Shown here: in pieces, positions 1 through 10,080 of the stretch
Numbering within the stretch: position 1 is the first letter of the stretch
Layout: every line of letters starts with the position of its first letter
Assembly: GCA_021789095.1 (NCBI GenBank)
Contig: JAJYJX010000046.1
Span: forward strand, 1 to 14,061
Reading direction: 5' to 3'
Length of the DNA: 14,061 bases
DNA from: a bacterium
GTDB lineage: Bacteria > JAMCPX01
Program-made: the position numbers and the translations under genes
Notes under the pieces: model-generated
The model's database searches: none
What the model saw: the letters and a program-made list of their open reading frames with translations, nothing else
What the model was told of the DNA's origin: nothing

Positions 1-477
1 TGCGGAAAATTTTCACCCGATGATAAAACCATTGCATATATCCATGATCCATTTCCTGGCGCCAATCCCATACCGAGCAGTGAAGCACCCATGAGCATTT
101 ATACCATATCTCCGGACGGCTCAAACAGGCAGCGGCTGTGCAATACGTCACAGGTATTCCCGCCAATCTCATGGTCACCGGACGGTAAATATATTTTATT
201 CTTGATGTCCTCTTCAACAACCGGTCATATCCAGATATTTATAATGCCTGTTGACTGCAGTGCTCCTCCCCGTCCTTTATCAGACCCGTCTTTCGATTGT
301 TTTGACCCGTCATTCTCGCCCGACGGCAATACAATAGTTTATACATCCAATCAGTACGGCAATTCCAGGATATTCATAATGAATGCGGACGGCTCAAACC
401 CAAGGGAGCTGACAAATGATGTGCATCTCAATGATCAGCCAGCATGGCAGAAAGGCATAGTATTACCTGTACAGTGA
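1..477 (+). CDS. TolB/PD40-type beta-propeller protein, C-terminal part (5' end outside window)
   Basis: The reading frame is open from the first base and closes at TGA 475-477, giving 158 visible residues; the start lies upstream of the window. The visible part contains repeated WD40-like PD40 blades: FSPDDKTIAYIHD, SWSPDGKYILFL and SFSPDGNTIVYTS, followed by RIFIMNADGSNPRELT. The SPDG(K/N) turn and the NADGSNPRELT strand are hallmarks of the TolB-like six-bladed propeller family. Such proteins are usually periplasmic or surface-exposed and act in protein-protein interaction; the N-terminus that would show a signal peptide is not in view. The family is certain from the sequence, but the specific role is not. 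The next gene starts about 55 bp later on the same strand, so co-transcription is possible but not shown. Confidence 0.85.
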   Translation, partial: CGKFSPDDKTIAYIHDPFPGANPIPSSEAPMSIYTISPDGSNRQRLCNTSQVFPPISWSPDGKYILFLMSSSTTGHIQIFIMPVDCSAPPRPLSDPSFDCFDPSFSPDGNTIVYTSNQYGNSRIFIMNADGSNPRELTNDVHLNDQPAWQKGIVLPVQ

Positions 478-532: not shown

Positions 533-973
533 TTGAGGATAGGGAAGCTCCTCCTCTTTCTAAGAATAGGCTTTTACACATTCTACATACCTTATCTTGA
601 GAAGAGAAATGGGCTGAAGGAGCTGTTTATTATACTATCAAAGAATGGAGCCCCGGCGGTAAGCGCGCGGCCCCTTGCGAAGGCTGATAAGAAACCGTAT
701 TACTATGACAAGTCTACTATCAGAAGATATGTTCATGCATGGATGCGCATAAAGGGCTTATTCATAGCCCAGCACTGCTGGAGCAGAACATTACTGCTTT
801 ATAAATTCTTAAAATCAGCCGGATACAATGTAATGATATATACAGGTATAAGAAAAGACTCTATAGATAATATTTCAATAATAGGACACAGCTGGATCAC
901 CATTGACGGCGATGTATTTGATGACAGAAGCGATGTTGCCGAAGCTTACTATGTAACATTTTCTTACCCATGA
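533..973 (+). CDS. Lasso-peptide B2-like protein (McjB C-terminal, transglutaminase-fold cysteine protease family)
   Basis: This 146-residue protein matches the size of stand-alone B2 proteins. In lasso-peptide pathways these remove the leader peptide using a Cys-His-Asp triad. Visible signature: HCWSRTLLLYKFLKSAGYNV (Cys82), a following G-I-R-K-D strand (105-109), then GHSWITIDGDVFDD with His119 and Asp130/131. The 12-residue His-to-Asp131 spacing agrees with the McjB triad as I recall it. The start is uncertain. The TTG at 533 has no convincing ribosome-binding site, no in-frame ATG or GTG lies upstream before the stop at 458-460, and an ATT at 524 is the other option. The end overlaps the next gene by ATGA (970-973), so the two are translationally coupled. 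No lasso precursor, B1/PqqD protein or dedicated cyclase is adjacent, so the substrate is unknown. Family call strong, pathway call weak. Confidence 0.82.
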   Translation: MRIGKLLLFLRIGFYTFYIPYLEKRNGLKELFIILSKNGAPAVSARPLAKADKKPYYYDKSTIRRYVHAWMRIKGLFIAQHCWSRTLLLYKFLKSAGYNVMIYTGIRKDSIDNISIIGHSWITIDGDVFDDRSDVAEAYYVTFSYP

Positions 974-2160
974 CCGGACTGTTTGATCCACTCAGAAAAC
1001 TGCTTGCAGATACATGTTCACCTGTAAAATCTGCAGAAAAGATAAAGCAGTTAAAATACAAGCTCTCTAAGATTAAGCCTGAAAAGCTTAAAAAGCTTGC
1101 AGATACAGAATTTCTCCCTCCGCTTCTATACTATCATCTTAAGACCTTCAATATTCCAGGATACAGTCATATGCTGCCGCAGCTCAAAGACAGCTATATG
1201 CGCAATACTGCACGCAATGTTCTGCTGCTGAAGCAATTAAAAGCGTTAAAAAAACAGGCGGAACAGAAAGGTATAAAGATAATCCTGCTCAAAGGTGCTG
1301 CGCTTGCCATGTCCGTTTATAATGAAATAGGACTCAGACCAATGGATGATATAGACATACTTGTCGAACAAAAGCACGTTGACAGGATAAAGGAGCTTAT
1401 GGAGCAGAACAGTATGCATCCATTATTCAAGGATACAAATCAAAACTGGCTTTTCAATATAAAATCCCATATAGTACCTTACCAGACTGACGACAGTATC
1501 CTCTCTCTCGATGTCCACACGCGATTGTTTGATGATAGGTTTATACACTTTGCAGAGCTAAAACCCTTTGAAAACACGTTCACAATAAACTGGGATAATG
1601 AATCATTTCTTACTCTCGATCCGTATACAGCATTCATCTATGGACTTTATCACATCGCAGTACACCATAACTTCTCATGTAAGCTAAGGGATATTATCGA
1701 TCTTTCATACGCTGTATCTTATTATGGCCTTGTACCCGAAAAAATATTTTCTTATATTGACTCCACACATGCAGCAGGACTGTTTTTGCCGCTGATAGAT
1801 ACAACCTTCGAACTTTCCGGCGTTAAGCCGGAACACCATAATGCTGCAACAATCAGCCATGCATACCTTTACTGGACAAACAGTGTTGTTATGAAATACC
1901 TGCCTATACAGGCATCATCCAGATTATCAGACCCTGCACTAAGGATTGCCACCGTTTTAACGTCTGGAGTTAAAAAATGGATGCTTCATATCTTCAGATT
2001 TACAGACTATGAAGTCTCTATATTCTATAAATCTCAGAAAGGCGGCATACTGAAAAAGGCTTTTATGGGTATATGGACGATTGTTATTGCTATCATTTAT
2101 ATTGTTGTGCTACCACTTTTTTATATTAAAGTAAAAGTACAAAAAATACAAACGAAATAA
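970..2160 (+). CDS. NTP_transf_5 family nucleotidyltransferase with C-terminal membrane helix
   Basis: This 396-residue protein belongs to the uncharacterised nucleotidyltransferase family of the Pol-beta fold. The core at residues 104-132 contains LLKGAALAMSVY, then GLRPMDDIDILV with metal-binding Asp127 and Asp129. Later family landmarks are LSLDVHTRLF (Asp181, the third acidic position with a His two residues on) and KLRDIIDLSYAV near 238-249. A hydrophobic stretch at about 366-388, followed by Lys-rich residues, looks like a single membrane anchor. The ATG lies inside the stop of the B2-like gene (ATGA overlap), implying coupled expression and probably a shared pathway. Family members occur beside B2 proteins and AsnB-like enzymes in several RiPP-type clusters, where they are thought to nucleotidylate or otherwise modify a peptide or small molecule. 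The reaction here is unknown. Confidence 0.85.
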   Translation: MTGLFDPLRKLLADTCSPVKSAEKIKQLKYKLSKIKPEKLKKLADTEFLPPLLYYHLKTFNIPGYSHMLPQLKDSYMRNTARNVLLLKQLKALKKQAEQKGIKIILLKGAALAMSVYNEIGLRPMDDIDILVEQKHVDRIKELMEQNSMHPLFKDTNQNWLFNIKSHIVPYQTDDSILSLDVHTRLFDDRFIHFAELKPFENTFTINWDNESFLTLDPYTAFIYGLYHIAVHHNFSCKLRDIIDLSYAVSYYGLVPEKIFSYIDSTHAAGLFLPLIDTTFELSGVKPEHHNAATISHAYLYWTNSVVMKYLPIQASSRLSDPALRIATVLTSGVKKWMLHIFRFTDYEVSIFYKSQKGGILKKAFMGIWTIVIAIIYIVVLPLFYIKVKVQKIQTK

Positions 2161-2360: not shown

Positions 2361-3131
2361 ATGTATACACTATCAAAACTCTTTTCAGCATGGTTTTTGC
2401 CGCCGGGATTATTTGTTACAATACTGGTTATATGGGCAATAATTCTTATAAGAAAAAAGAAAACAGGTATAGCTGTTTTAATGTTGGTCTTTTCGGGCTT
2501 TATCTATGCTCTCAGTATAACGCCGGTAGCAGATAAACTCATACTGCCTCTTGAAAACAGTTATTCACGGCTTGATGTTAAAAACATAACAAACCATGAT
2601 ATTTATGCAGTGCTTGGAGGCGGCATACATGATAATTCGCCTGATATCGAAGGTGAAGGCTCGCCAAGTGGCGATGCATTGCAAAGGCTTGTCTATGTCT
2701 TCAGGCTGTACAGGTTCCAGCCTTTACCGGTCATTGTTAGCAGCGGTAAAGGGTTCAAATGCCAGAAACCGGAAGCACCTGTAATGAAGCGCTATCTTGT
2801 TCAAATGGGTATACCCGAAAAAGACATATACATGGATACAACAAGCAGAAATACCTATGAGAATGCCGTCGAAATAAAGAAGCTTTGTGAAAAGCTTGCG
2901 TGCAAGAGAGTAATCCTTATTACTTCAGCATATCATATGAAAAGGGCTGTTTATTCGTTCAGGCATGCCGGGTTAACGAACGTGGTGCCTGCACCCGCTG
3001 ATTATAAAACAAGCAGGACTTGTTACAATTTCATAAACTATATGCCGGATATGGAAGCACTGCTCAACACCTACAGGGCGTTACATGAGTACATAGGTAT
3101 GCTTTACTATAAGATCCTTGTAAGGGTATAA
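2361..3131 (+). CDS. ElyC/SanA/YdcF family (DUF218) membrane protein
   Basis: This 256-residue protein has two N-terminal membrane helices (about 12-31 and 36-54), separated by a short RKKKT turn, followed by a soluble DUF218 domain. Family landmarks are the AVLGGG turn (83-88), SSGKG (127-131), the SRNTYENA helix start (162-169) and ITSAYHMKRA (187-196). Length and two-helix topology match ElyC of E. coli, which affects use of the undecaprenyl-phosphate carrier in envelope biogenesis; the smaller SanA and YdcF have a different N-terminus. The start is well supported by AAGGAGG at 2350-2356, with 4 bp between it and the ATG. The gene converges on the AsnB-like gene with only 12 bp between stop codons; a short T-run follows, but I see no stable hairpin. 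The neighbouring polyprenyl-phosphate glycosyltransferase makes a lipid-carrier role plausible, though that is inference. Confidence 0.85.
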   Translation: MYTLSKLFSAWFLPPGLFVTILVIWAIILIRKKKTGIAVLMLVFSGFIYALSITPVADKLILPLENSYSRLDVKNITNHDIYAVLGGGIHDNSPDIEGEGSPSGDALQRLVYVFRLYRFQPLPVIVSSGKGFKCQKPEAPVMKRYLVQMGIPEKDIYMDTTSRNTYENAVEIKKLCEKLACKRVILITSAYHMKRAVYSFRHAGLTNVVPAPADYKTSRTCYNFINYMPDMEALLNTYRALHEYIGMLYYKILVRV

Positions 3132-3143
3132 TTATTTTTTTCT

Positions 3144-5042
3144 CTATAATCCAAGCTTATATTTTTGCAGCCATTTAACAAGCACGAGAAGCGGCCAGAG
3201 CTTTTTCCTATGATCGTAAATCCTTGACGCATGTTCTTTTAAAAGCCTGTCAATATAAGCATGATTAAATATGCCGTTGCCTCCGACTGAATCTTCCGAC
3301 AGGATTGATTCAGCTTCATGCCTGAAATCATTTTGCAGCCATCGAGTAATAGGGATGCCGAAACCCTTTTTCTTTCTGCTCACCACTTCCCGGGGCAATT
3401 TATTTCTCATAAGATTCTTCAAGAGATATTTCCCGGTAATCCCCCTGATTTTATACTCAAAAGGAAGGGACATGCTGAATTCAACAAGCCTGTTGTCAAG
3501 CAGAGGGACCCTTGATTCTATGGATGCAGACATGGTTGCACGATCAACCTTTACAAGCAGGTCATCCGGCAGATACATAAAAATATCCAGTATATTCGCA
3601 CGTTCAGCTTCTGACATGCCTGGCACATCTGTAACCAGTTCCTCCGCCTGTTTATAAATGCCGTTATCGATATCCTTCAATAGTTCCTCTTTGAATATCA
3701 GGCTTAACCCTTCTGCAGTAAATCCTGACATCCATTGTATGTGCCTTTTATGTACAGGCATCAAGGCTGAACCGATGAATCTTTTTGCTACAAAGTCTAA
3801 AGAAAAATTCTTCGACGAAACCGGCAGCATGTGTATCAATGGTTCAAAAACTCCCTTCCTTACAAGGGCAGGCAGAGAACTGTAAAAAGATATAAACCTG
3901 TGAGCGATGTAGGTAGGATAGCCGGCGAACATCTCATCACCTCCCTCGCCGGAAAGCACGACCTTTACATGCTCGCCTGCCAGCCTGCTCAGGTAGTATG
4001 TCGGGATTACAGAAGGGTCTGCAACAGGCTCATCTATAAAGTCTGTGATCCTGTCAAACAGCTCCCTGAATACAGTGTAGGTAAACAATTCCGAGTAATG
4101 CCTTAATCCAAGTCTCCTGCTCACGATCATTGCATATCTGCTCTCGTCAAACGAAGGTTCATCAAATGCAATGGAAAAGCTGTTGATGTCTGCTGCTATT
4201 TTTGATGCAAAGTACGCAATTGTGGAGGAATCAATGCCTCCTGAAAGCAATACACCAACAGGCACATCAGCCGCCATCTGGTCCTTTACAGCATCCGATA
4301 AAAGTCCCTCTAACTGCATTTCAAGTTTTTTTTCATTCTGTATTCTGTTGTTCTGTACTGTCTTGTTTGTATGAATCTTGATCTCTGAAAACGTTTTTTT
4401 ATAAATTCGATCCTGCTCCTTAACAATGCATACACCAGGCATAAGCTTAAAAATGCCTTTTATAATCGTGTTTGGTGCAGGGGTGTAATCATGGGTAAGA
4501 TACTGTGCCACTGCCGGAAGATCCAATTTGTATTCACTGTTCTGTAAGGCAAGCATGGCTTTCAACTCCGATGCAAATACGATACCATCTGTTAAGCTGT
4601 AATAGAGCGGCTTTATACCAATCCTGTCCCTTGCCAGTATAAGCCTTTTGCGATTCCCATCGTATATTGCGAAGGCAAACATCCCGTTGAGTTTAGCAAA
4701 ACCCTCTATCCCGTACTGTTCGTAAAGATGAACAATAACCTCTGTATCCGTACCTGTGTAAAAGCCATGACCCGCCGATGCAAGATCCTTTTTCAGCTCC
4801 CGGAAATTATATACCTCGCCGTTGTACACAATCCATAGAGAGCCGTCTTCGTTATGAACCGGTTGATCGCCGTTTTTTATATCAATTATTGAAAGCCTGT
4901 TTGCGCCGATTACGCATTGATCGAACACACGAAGGCCTTGCTGATCAGGCCCGCGGTAACGCATAGCATCAAGCATTGTCCGTGATGTTACGATCAGATC
5001 ATCTTGTGGAGCATGCCTGTATATGCCGCATATTCCGCACAT
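3144..5042 (-). CDS. asnB: Asparagine synthetase (glutamine-hydrolysing) / AsnB-like amidotransferase
   Basis: This 632-residue enzyme has two complete domains. The N-terminal class II glutaminase starts MCGICGIY, with the catalytic Cys2 exposed after Met removal, and has the glutamine-site motifs NRLSIID (48-54), NGEVYN (74-79) and GTDTE (97-101). The C-terminal ATP-pyrophosphatase synthetase domain has the PP-loop SGGIDSS (267-273) and GEGGDEMFAGYP (365-376). Known chemistry is ATP-dependent amide formation using ammonia from glutamine, classically Asp to Asn. The length (about 630) fits the AsnB subgroup common in exopolysaccharide and exosortase-type loci, rather than the shorter housekeeping form. 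The upstream glycosyltransferase ends 3 bp before this start, so the two are one operon. It could amidate a sugar or peptide instead of free Asp. A lasso-cyclase role is unlikely because the glutaminase domain is intact. Confidence 0.93.
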   Translation of the reverse strand: MCGICGIYRHAPQDDLIVTSRTMLDAMRYRGPDQQGLRVFDQCVIGANRLSIIDIKNGDQPVHNEDGSLWIVYNGEVYNFRELKKDLASAGHGFYTGTDTEVIVHLYEQYGIEGFAKLNGMFAFAIYDGNRKRLILARDRIGIKPLYYSLTDGIVFASELKAMLALQNSEYKLDLPAVAQYLTHDYTPAPNTIIKGIFKLMPGVCIVKEQDRIYKKTFSEIKIHTNKTVQNNRIQNEKKLEMQLEGLLSDAVKDQMAADVPVGVLLSGGIDSSTIAYFASKIAADINSFSIAFDEPSFDESRYAMIVSRRLGLRHYSELFTYTVFRELFDRITDFIDEPVADPSVIPTYYLSRLAGEHVKVVLSGEGGDEMFAGYPTYIAHRFISFYSSLPALVRKGVFEPLIHMLPVSSKNFSLDFVAKRFIGSALMPVHKRHIQWMSGFTAEGLSLIFKEELLKDIDNGIYKQAEELVTDVPGMSEAERANILDIFMYLPDDLLVKVDRATMSASIESRVPLLDNRLVEFSMSLPFEYKIRGITGKYLLKNLMRNKLPREVVSRKKKGFGIPITRWLQNDFRHEAESILSEDSVGGNGIFNHAYIDRLLKEHASRIYDHRKKLWPLLVLVKWLQKYKLGL

Positions 5043-6088: not shown

Positions 6089-7573
6089 TTAAAACAGAAC
6101 TGTGAAACGCGTTACGAATGCAAAAACACCGTCTGCGTTGTTATTTATATCCTTGAACACTGCACCCGGTATAAAGTAACCTGTCTGGAACCCGAATATA
6201 AAATTGTCCGACATGGTCGTATCGACGCCAAGGTCCGCTTCATAACCAAGGTTCCTTGCCGGTTTGCCCGGTGTCCTGCCTGCATAAGCGGCATAATTTG
6301 TAAAATCGTTTGTTTCTGCCCATAGCAGCTGCAGTTTTGCTTTAAGGAAATCCGCGGGTATAAACTTTACCATTGGCGCAATGTATATAAAGTCATCTTT
6401 TAATGCGGATTGCGATGGTATAGATGTGGGTGGAGTATTAAGCTTACCCAATCCATTGAGTGTTGCCAAGGTAGGATTCGGGAACGAATTCGGTCCTGCG
6501 AGCCCTGTGTTGTTAAACAGTATAAGGCTTGAGTTATAATCATTGCTGAATGGGTAGGTTTCTATATCACTTGAGGACTTACCGTTTGCGGGTGAGAAAC
6601 CTAATTCAAGCACATAATCCAGCGGCTTCATTGAATAAGTTCCTCTTAATATACCGCCCTGCGCATCCACAACCTTAAGCTTGTTTGTTCCTATACCTGC
6701 CTGCAGATACTGTGCGGCAACGCTTGATGCGGTAAACGGCATTAAGCTGCCGCTTATATAAAAGTAATCCAAAGCAAGCTTTAGATTCTCTATTGGTTTT
6801 ACATCAGCATAAAGCTCTAAAAGGTTGATATTTTTCTTAAAGGAATTCTGTTCTTGATGCTGTAACAGTAATAAGACAGTTGCTTCCTTTGTCATATAAC
6901 CCGGAATAAATGTGTACCAATCATCATCATCATAAGGGTTGTTTATGTCATTTCCTGCTATCTTTGCATAATCAAGTATGGTGATAAGTGGTTTGTCCTT
7001 GCCCATAGGCATGGTGGCAAACTGTATCTGGTCAGCAGTATTGCCATAATAAGCATCTCCCCATTCATTCTTAAATCCATCTCCACTATTATACAGAACT
7101 CCCTCCCCAAAACCATAAGGCATACGGCCCAGGGAAAAACTGCCTACCGGTGAATGATACTCAAGCCATACCCTTTTAACATTCATGTTCAGGAGCGCTG
7201 TACCATCGGGTGTAGTTGCACTGCCGGGATAATAAGATGAGGTATTCGAAGGATTGCCTGTGTTCACAGAGTTGCCCGAATCCACGTTATCGCCCCACAG
7301 CACGTCGTCAAGCATGTCGATCTGCGATTTGATGACAATATCTTCATTAATATTTACCTGCGGCTCCAATCGGAATCTCTGATCAAAATAAGATGTGTTT
7401 TCAGAATTTTGCGTTGCAATATTATGGTAGTAAACTTGCCTTACCCTGTAATATCCATCAAACTTAAAGCTTGATGCCTCGAGAAGACCCGCAGATGCCG
7501 GCACGGATGCAAGCATCATGATCAATGATGTAATGACAATGGTCAACAGCATTATACTTTTTTTGATCTTCAT
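6089..7573 (-). CDS. Outer-membrane beta-barrel porin-like protein
   Basis: This 494-residue protein begins with a Sec signal peptide: MKIKKSIMLL, then a hydrophobic core, then ASVPASA with likely cleavage after Ala28. The mature part has alternating aromatic/polar strands typical of a beta-barrel, for example FKFDGYYRVRQVYY (about 37-50), QRFRLEPQVNI and VWLEYHSPVGSFSLGRMPYG. It ends FAFVTRFTVLF, with the C-terminal Phe used for BAM-dependent outer-membrane insertion. The opening strands and the SLGRMPYGFGEG turn recall porins of the alginate-export/OprB-like kind, but I cannot assign a substrate. Translation start is secure: a near-perfect AAGGAGGT (complement of 7579-7586) lies 5 bp before the ATG. 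The gene has its own terminator and probably its own promoter. Confidence 0.85.
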   Translation of the reverse strand: MKIKKSIMLLTIVITSLIMMLASVPASAGLLEASSFKFDGYYRVRQVYYHNIATQNSENTSYFDQRFRLEPQVNINEDIVIKSQIDMLDDVLWGDNVDSGNSVNTGNPSNTSSYYPGSATTPDGTALLNMNVKRVWLEYHSPVGSFSLGRMPYGFGEGVLYNSGDGFKNEWGDAYYGNTADQIQFATMPMGKDKPLITILDYAKIAGNDINNPYDDDDWYTFIPGYMTKEATVLLLLQHQEQNSFKKNINLLELYADVKPIENLKLALDYFYISGSLMPFTASSVAAQYLQAGIGTNKLKVVDAQGGILRGTYSMKPLDYVLELGFSPANGKSSSDIETYPFSNDYNSSLILFNNTGLAGPNSFPNPTLATLNGLGKLNTPPTSIPSQSALKDDFIYIAPMVKFIPADFLKAKLQLLWAETNDFTNYAAYAGRTPGKPARNLGYEADLGVDTTMSDNFIFGFQTGYFIPGAVFKDINNNADGVFAFVTRFTVLF

Positions 7574-7596
7574 ACTCTACCTCCTTTTTCTACCGT

Positions 7597-7625
7597 TTTT
7601 ACTTTAAAAACACCAATTCTGTCAA
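7597..7625 (-). promoter_or_regulatory. Candidate sigma70-type promoter of the porin gene
   Basis: On the - strand a perfect TTGACA (complement of 7620-7625) is followed, 17 bp on, by GTAAAA (complement of 7597-7602), a poor -10 match in a very A/T-rich stretch about 25 bp before the ATG. The -35 is good and the -10 weak. A second TTGACA lies further upstream in the same gap (near 7705-7710), with a TATGCA-like -10 at a long 19-bp spacing. One of the two probably drives the porin; start-site data are needed. Confidence 0.35.
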
Positions 7626-7736
7626 GGAATATCCAATACTCTCTTCGCTGAAGTTTATCTACCTGCACCATAATTCTCGTGCATACCTTTGCCTGTTCTG
7701 CTTTGTGTCAAAATACCTTTCTTATCCTTTTGTTTT

Positions 7737-9534: not shown

Positions 9535-10080
9535 TTAAAACTTATCCTTGTAATTATAAAAACCTTTGCCGGTTTTCCGTCCTCATTCCTTTTTGACGAA
9601 TTTCTCAACAATTGTTGGTGAAGGCTTTTGAGCCGGATTAAAAAAGTGCATGTTACATACCTTATCCGGACGGCTTGTAGCATCGGCGATTTTGGAGCTG
9701 ACAATAAAGGAGCTGTTGGTTGCCAGAATAGTATGCTTTGGACAGATCTTATCTAACTCGGAAAATAACCGGCGTTTTATCGCGAGCTTCTCTATAATAG
9801 CTTCGATGACAAAATCGGCATCCACTGCCGCTTCCTTAAGGTTAGAAGTAAAAGAAAGATTGGTTTTGGCTTGCTGAGTTACTTCCTCAGTTAACTTTCC
9901 CTTGACAACGCGATCAGGTAAGTAGGCATCAATAAATTCTTTTGCTTTTTTGATGGCTTCTGAATTGACATCCGTACAGGCAACCTTATAACCGCTTAAA
10001 GCCTCAAACAGGGCAATTTCGTGCCCCATGATTCCTGCGCCAACAACACAGATTTTTTTGATGCCAGAAATGGTCATCAT
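9535..10080 (-). pseudogene. 3-hydroxyacyl-CoA dehydrogenase, internally deleted and with in-frame stop
   Basis: The intact part (165 codons, stop TGA at 9583-9585) is the NAD-binding half of a 3-hydroxyacyl-CoA/3-hydroxybutyryl-CoA dehydrogenase. It has the GAGIMG Rossmann loop (14-19), IEAIIEKLAIKRRLFSELD, ATNSS (120-124) and MHFFNP with catalytic His145. Family members are about 280-290 residues. Here the sequence jumps within a few residues of HFFNPAQ to PSPTIVEKFVKKE, which reads like the end of the C-terminal domain. Directly after the TGA the same frame continues GRKTGKGFYNYKDKF to a TAA at 9535-9537, the canonical C-terminal signature of the family. So about 100 residues of the helical substrate/dimer domain, including the catalytic Glu expected about 12 residues after the His, are missing, and a nonsense codon was added. 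An active enzyme is not expected. The acyl-CoA synthetase starts about 50 bp downstream. Confidence 0.88.

Follow-up and report, generated by a model that had tools for sequence, protein, structure and literature searches.

A B2-like leader peptidase and its NTP_transf_5 partner in a likely cyclase-free RiPP pathway scattered over three loci

The window analysed here, i.e. the whole 14,061-nt stretch of DNA, is contig C179 in the 203-contig genome G000; its family comprises nine genomes (G000-G008). Window position 1 falls mid-gene, inside the gene of a TolB-like propeller. We observed that the end of contig C195 of the same genome overlaps window positions 1-138 with identity at 137 of 138 nt. 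C195 carries B1, a large lipoprotein gene and the 5' part of the propeller gene, and joining the two contigs gives the order B1-propeller-B2-NTP in G000. An earlier sequence-only reading, in which the protease-nucleotidyltransferase pair had neither B1 nor any other PqqD-like leader-binding protein, was wrong on this point because the contig ends inside the operon. The features of the two contigs are as follows.

L105 (contig C195) 944-3718, - strand: large lipoprotein gene
L105 (contig C195) 632-901, - strand: B1/PqqD gene (PF05402 and TbiB1 matches)
Window 1..477, + strand: TolB-like (PD40) beta-propeller lipoprotein, 3' part (PD40 9.5e-13)
Window 533..973, + strand: B2-like leader peptidase (PF13471 1.4e-9; NF033537 over cut-off)
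Window 970..2160, + strand: NTP_transf_5 protein (PF14907 6.4e-34)
Window 2361..3131, + strand: DUF218/ElyC-like envelope protein (PF02698 1.6e-32)
Window 3144-5042: AsnB, with an intact glutaminase start, MCGICG

The B2 and NTP_transf_5 reading frames share the ATGA overlap (970-973) already pointed out from the window's letters. An uninterrupted series of large lipoprotein gene, hairpin with T-run, B1, TolB-like propeller lipoprotein, B2, NTP and ElyC-like gene was found in G001, G004, G006 (where the contig begins within the lipoprotein gene) and G007. Among the relatives from the window's family, the cassette was complete in four, partial in three and lost in one. Contig ends truncate the loci of G005 and G008; in G003 the propeller, B2 and NTP genes are broken, and B1, the candidate precursor and the kinase described below are kept. 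G002 has lost the cassette, with a lipoprotein gene and an NTP fragment remaining. The ElyC-like gene is the downstream neighbour in five family genomes, directly after NTP in the four uninterrupted loci; it is not at the post-NTP place in G005. We assign its product an accessory role at most.

The hairpin with a T-run lies directly before the B1 start codon, after the large lipoprotein gene, and is conserved in L059, L055, L058, L053, L096 and L105. Its stem sequence differs among genomes with the pairing kept, and it possibly attenuates expression of the B1 operon. The gap between the NTP and ElyC-like genes (window about 2160-2340) holds a dispersed-looking inverted repeat, and a similar sequence occupies the same place in G001 (L053 15555-15701). 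Elsewhere in the window, a 3-hydroxyacyl-CoA dehydrogenase ORF of 165 aa (9583-10080) covers the NAD-binding half only, compared to families of about 290 aa, and looks truncated or frameshifted.

B1 is of the PqqD type (PF05402, 3e-12). Its closest solved relative is TbiB1 (5v1u; 9.4e-14 with the B1 profile), which serves a lasso pathway as its RRE protein. The large lipoprotein (~924-1066 aa) precedes B1 in every family genome where this region is visible. A PqqD domain fused to a PGA_cap (CapA-like) domain was seen at L136 184-1773, in a neighbourhood that holds a B1-HprK-B2-NTP cluster.

The B2-like ORF proved real: it matches Transglut_core3 (1.4e-9) and scores 34.3 bits with lasso_biosyn_B2 (NF033537), just above the 33-bit cut-off. 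The called start, TTG at 533, is uncertain since it leaves the upstream part shorter than in relatives. A GC-rich insertion of 14 codons (window about 644-690, residues about 39-53) is absent from relatives, and model confidence is low there (residues 40-54). All six family members have Cys82, His119 and Trp121, as do all other B2 proteins that can be read at the position in question. Asp131 is also constant in the six family members, but is not conserved across the clade. Thus, of the Cys82/His119/Asp131 arrangement proposed earlier, the first two residues hold almost universally, but the third holds only inside the family, where Asp131 is probably the third catalytic residue. In the AF2 model (mean pLDDT 84) a helix begins at Cys82 and a strand holds His119, a predicted placement as expected for a papain/transglutaminase-like enzyme. 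Foldseek matches of the model to known proteases were weak (best 0.1). Both B2 and NTP are under purifying selection, with dN/dS of about 0.09-0.21 where dS is unsaturated.

The NTP_transf_5 protein retains the DxD motif and third acidic site read from the window: Asp127 and Asp129 occur in all 92 sequences, and 89 of the 92 have D or E as residue 181. Thus, the catalytic residues of both proteins are conserved among close relatives. The AF2 model of the NTP protein resembles LnuA and ANT(2'')-Ia, and more weakly FKRP. With its pol-beta-type nucleotidyltransferase fold, the protein probably acts as an 'N'-type tailoring enzyme, like PsmN, LppN and BsfN. A second, short NTP_transf_5 match in G000 reaches the end of contig C161.

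The conserved neighbours of B2+NTP pairs, proposed earlier as a check, were tabulated in a survey of 386 genomes plus named loci. There were 15 further B2+NTP loci outside the window's family. Both B1 and HprK were present in 14 of them; an AsnB-type cyclase was found in eight and none in seven. A tree of 32 B2 proteins, which has several long branches, showed a split at 100/99 between 16 cyclase-free rows (six from the family and ten others, one of which, L123, sits at a contig edge) and 16 rows of which 13 have a cyclase. The B2 of the window falls on the cyclase-free side, outside the lasso/cyclase clade. The label of cyclase presence was far more clustered on the tree than in shuffles. The motif around the catalytic His reads GH[SAC]W on the cyclase-free side and AHxW on the other side, with one exception (L216). 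A tblastn check found no AsnB-type cyclase in the 16 loci on the window's side. The missing cyclase is a genuine trait of the whole clade. Plasmid B2s of Tistrella, Azospirillum and Halopiger served only as context in the tree; no close B2 relatives on plasmids were found.

The earlier statement that no dedicated cyclase stands beside the pair was borne out, since neither the operon nor any family locus holds an AsnB-type macrolactam cyclase. Nor was the pair consistently accompanied by a complete lasso cluster, as the family loci and the ten other loci of the same clade are without a cyclase. Every family genome has AsnB-type genes unlinked to the pathway. The AsnB of the window was rejected as a cyclase: it is an ordinary asparagine-synthetase-like enzyme with, as had been noted, an intact glutaminase domain; it lies outside the system, and its orthologues in relatives are on other contigs and occur also in G002, which lost the system.

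Further partners of the pair, missed when the window was read by itself, were found on a third contig. This locus, with an HprK-like kinase and a radical SAM enzyme, is conserved in G000, G001, G003, G004 and G006 (in G006 the kinase is a profile match with no called ORF); in G000, G001 and G004 it also has a MurU-like nucleotidyltransferase. The kinase is nearest to kinases of the cyclase-free B2 clade. For the radical SAM enzyme, the nearest counterparts are the B2-adjacent ones of L064 (48%) and L066 (37%), both in the same B2 clade; in L066 a propeller lipoprotein directly precedes B2, as in the window's family. No HprK-like gene was found in G005, G007 and G008, which are 80-87% complete MAGs. 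Weak, short HprK matches in G002 and G005 were not counted, the one in G002 also lying within a RapZ-like ORF. At 92% completeness, G002 is without B1/B2, the precursor and an HprK-like gene of this kind.

The suggestion that the precursor is encoded elsewhere gained support. A scan of the family loci for conserved small ORFs in or beside the operon found none except B1 itself, which fits the earlier view that no precursor stands beside the pair. A motif (regex) search recovered lasso-type precursors in cyclase-positive clusters, and small peptides sharing their leader turned up when it was applied to cyclase-free clusters from other taxa. We ran a profile of 14 leaders from other taxa, including zero family sequences, over whole genomes. 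It gave one strong match each (2e-6 to 1.6e-5) in G000, G001, G003, G005 and G006, i.e. in five of nine family genomes, with the next-best matches at 0.08 or weaker. The candidate precursor lies on an unlinked contig, in trans to the operon. It was not found in G004, G007 and G008 (80-87% complete MAGs), and the profile had no precursor match in G002 (92% complete).

The G000 candidate is MSEKRQNKITVTSEKSDTSAVACSNREGKKTFIEPELREYPSLKEVTLLTMSGVSGATFFKTFK, with ...FIEPELREYPSLKEVTL ending the leader and LTMSGVSGATFFKTFK following the predicted cut. For the unmodified core LTMSGVSGATFFKTFK the calculated neutral monoisotopic mass is 1720.886. Its leader has an aromatic residue at -17, Pro at -14, Leu at -12 and Thr at -2, the exact lasso-leader geometry. 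All five family precursors show the YxxPxL pattern at -17 to -12 with Thr(-2), Phe replacing Tyr; setting this Phe at -17 places Thr at -2 in each. The leader block in the family reads FIEPELREYPSLxEVT. Core residues 7-9 are SGA, SGA, SGT, TGT and SGG, with Asp/Glu in none of the five, and precursor length varies from 62 to 85 residues. Synonymous sites of the precursor block are near saturation with few nonsynonymous changes, i.e. conservation is at the protein level, under strong purifying selection. The precursor gene adjoins a homologous large lipoprotein gene, or is one short ORF from it, in four of these five genomes; in G003 a gene related to the large lipoprotein is ~6 kb away. Two observations come from other loci. 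In L215 (about 7480-7660, + strand) a precursor-like peptide with a nearly all-Tyr/Trp core end, SQWYYYYYYYWY, has B1, B2 and radical SAM genes alongside. L169 (4417-5617, + strand) has five tandem small Cys/Gly/Ser-rich precursor-like ORFs with a common YQxPEL leader, near HprK and without B2.

We consider it likely that the pair is part of a cyclase-free RiPP pathway with genes scattered over three loci in the window's family. Locus 1, with reading frames that overlap or lie close together, would supply B1 (RRE), the TolB-like propeller lipoprotein, B2 and NTP_transf_5; locus 2, the 62-85 residue precursor adjoining or near a large secreted lipoprotein; and locus 3, a sugar-1-phosphate nucleotidyltransferase, the HprK-like kinase and the radical SAM enzyme. 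Gene content, operon, conservation, leader geometry and co-loss in one relative (G002) are observed; enzyme activities, their order, export and function we infer. B1 would bind the FIEPEL leader motif, and the radical SAM enzyme and kinase would act on the Ser/Thr/Gly-rich core. By analogy with paeninodin, pseudomycoidin, Bsf and LPP (PMC8498205, PMC10368454, PMC13381572), the kinase may phosphorylate a core hydroxyl, and NTP_transf_5 may attach a sugar or nucleotide group to a phosphate. B1 would then present the leader to B2, with Cys82 cutting after residue -1, and the product released would be a linear peptide (LTMSGVSGATFFKTFK in G000). With a cyclase and an Asp/Glu acceptor both missing, no macrolactam is expected.

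Thus, the earlier idea that the pair processes a peptide stands, with a candidate precursor in five of nine family genomes, but its 'without B1' part was an effect of the contig end. The three loci are joined by homology and co-occurrence since they are unlinked in every family genome. Some findings count against the pathway: the missing precursor in G004, G007 and G008 and the missing kinase in G005, G007 and G008 are unexplained despite genome incompleteness, and G003 keeps B1, precursor and kinase with B2, propeller and NTP broken. Also, the leader aromatic is Phe compared to Tyr/Trp of the described motif, the third catalytic residue of B2 is unconserved across the clade, and the Foldseek matches are weak.

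Other explanations have to be weighed against these data. The conserved lipoprotein upstream of B1, separated from it only by the conserved hairpin and T-run, would fit an abundant substrate followed by its enzymes, and the precursor genes also neighbour large lipoproteins. The cassette could then be an envelope-protein maturation system acting on the large (or the propeller) lipoprotein, with no small peptide. We regard this as unlikely: G002 keeps the lipoprotein without the cassette, no B1/B2 was found near distant lipoprotein homologues, and the lipoprotein is without the conserved YxxP leader geometry. As a leader-bearing substrate it was rejected, with a single aligned F..P.F match at the wrong spacing to Thr.

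A true lasso peptide pathway with its cyclase elsewhere in the genome, e.g. the AsnB of the window, would agree with the lasso type of B1, B2 and leader, with the cyclase in eight of 15 B2+NTP loci of other taxa and with the AsnB-type genes of every family genome. It is, however, very unlikely, given the ordinary, MCGICG-bearing AsnB with its orthologues on other contigs and in G002, the absence of Asp/Glu at core positions 7-9 and the position of B2 outside the cyclase clade. The broken genes of G003 and the loss in G002 could suggest a decaying remnant of a lasso/LPP-type cluster with no present function; the low dN/dS of B2 and NTP, the catalytic residues conserved in six genomes and the strong purifying selection on the precursor block make decay highly improbable.

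To our knowledge, the definitions of the HPr-rel-A and SynChlorMet cassettes do not include B2. These cassettes (TIGR04352/04353, TIGR04248-04251) resemble the cyclase-free pathway in bringing PqqD, HprK-like and radical SAM proteins together. All scores were far below the NCBIfam cut-offs, though: 41.7 bits compared to 200 for the kinase (HprK_rel_B), 90.7 compared to 400 for the radical SAM enzyme (ScmF) and 18.1 compared to 35 for PqqD.

Phosphorylated lasso peptides (paeninodin, pseudomycoidin, Bsf) share B1, B2, kinase and nucleotidyltransferase with the window's family, and B2-NTP adjacency or fusion has already been reported for them (PMC8498205, PMC10368454). Their leaders, too, carry YxxPxL at -17 to -12, and most of them have Thr(-2) (PMC10368454). 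Hexose addition to a phosphorylated lasso peptide was reported for PsmN of pseudomycoidin. In contrast, the window's family has no macrolactam cyclase, no core Asp/Glu at 7-9, no linked precursor and a B2 of a separate clade. B1 as RRE protein, B2 (34.3 bits compared to 33, though outside the lasso-side clade) and the leader are lasso features; since the two defining features of cyclase and core Asp/Glu fail, the system is not a lasso peptide pathway.

Linear polyphosphorylated peptides (LPPs), thought to stay linear, are similar in being cyclase-free, with a discrete RRE, an HprK-like kinase, an NTP transferase and a [Y/W]xxP-type leader (Popov et al. 2026, PMC13381572). The window's family has this combination with an unlinked kinase. 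On the other hand, LPPs have an archaeal-type signal peptidase (LppS) in place of B2, an MsbA-like transporter, a Bacillota distribution and the leader YxxPxVLxHQxIxFETxxS (PMC13381572), a consensus that FIEPELREYPSLxEVT does not follow. No SpI-like leader peptidase of the LppS kind was seen within the three loci, where B2 occupies that role; the family in turn has a propeller lipoprotein and a radical SAM enzyme, and its genes are spread over three unlinked loci. Therefore, with a failing leader consensus and B2 replacing the signal peptidase, the system falls outside the LPP definition. No activity of LppN was seen in the heterologous host used for it. Our best reading, by analogy, is that the system would work like lasso and LPP pathways minus the ring, close to LPPs but with B2.

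In the open-access literature searched, we met no account of a cyclase-free family that carries B2, and there is a fair chance that the B2 clade without cyclases merits a class of its own. Tentatively, we suggest that it may represent a broad undescribed multi-phylum RiPP class, in which a distinct lasso-type B2 clade (GH[SAC]W) matures linear, radical-SAM- and kinase-modified peptides, with genes in the window's family fully unlinked and tied to cell-envelope lipoproteins. Among proteins annotated as 'lasso B2' there is a distinct lineage without cyclases, and mining based on gene clusters misses pathways with a precursor encoded elsewhere. A concrete candidate precursor, cut site and mass are now available for testing. 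Such a pathway would link lasso leader-peptidase chemistry with radical SAM tailoring and would form a B2-using parallel to the LPPs, which were described only recently.
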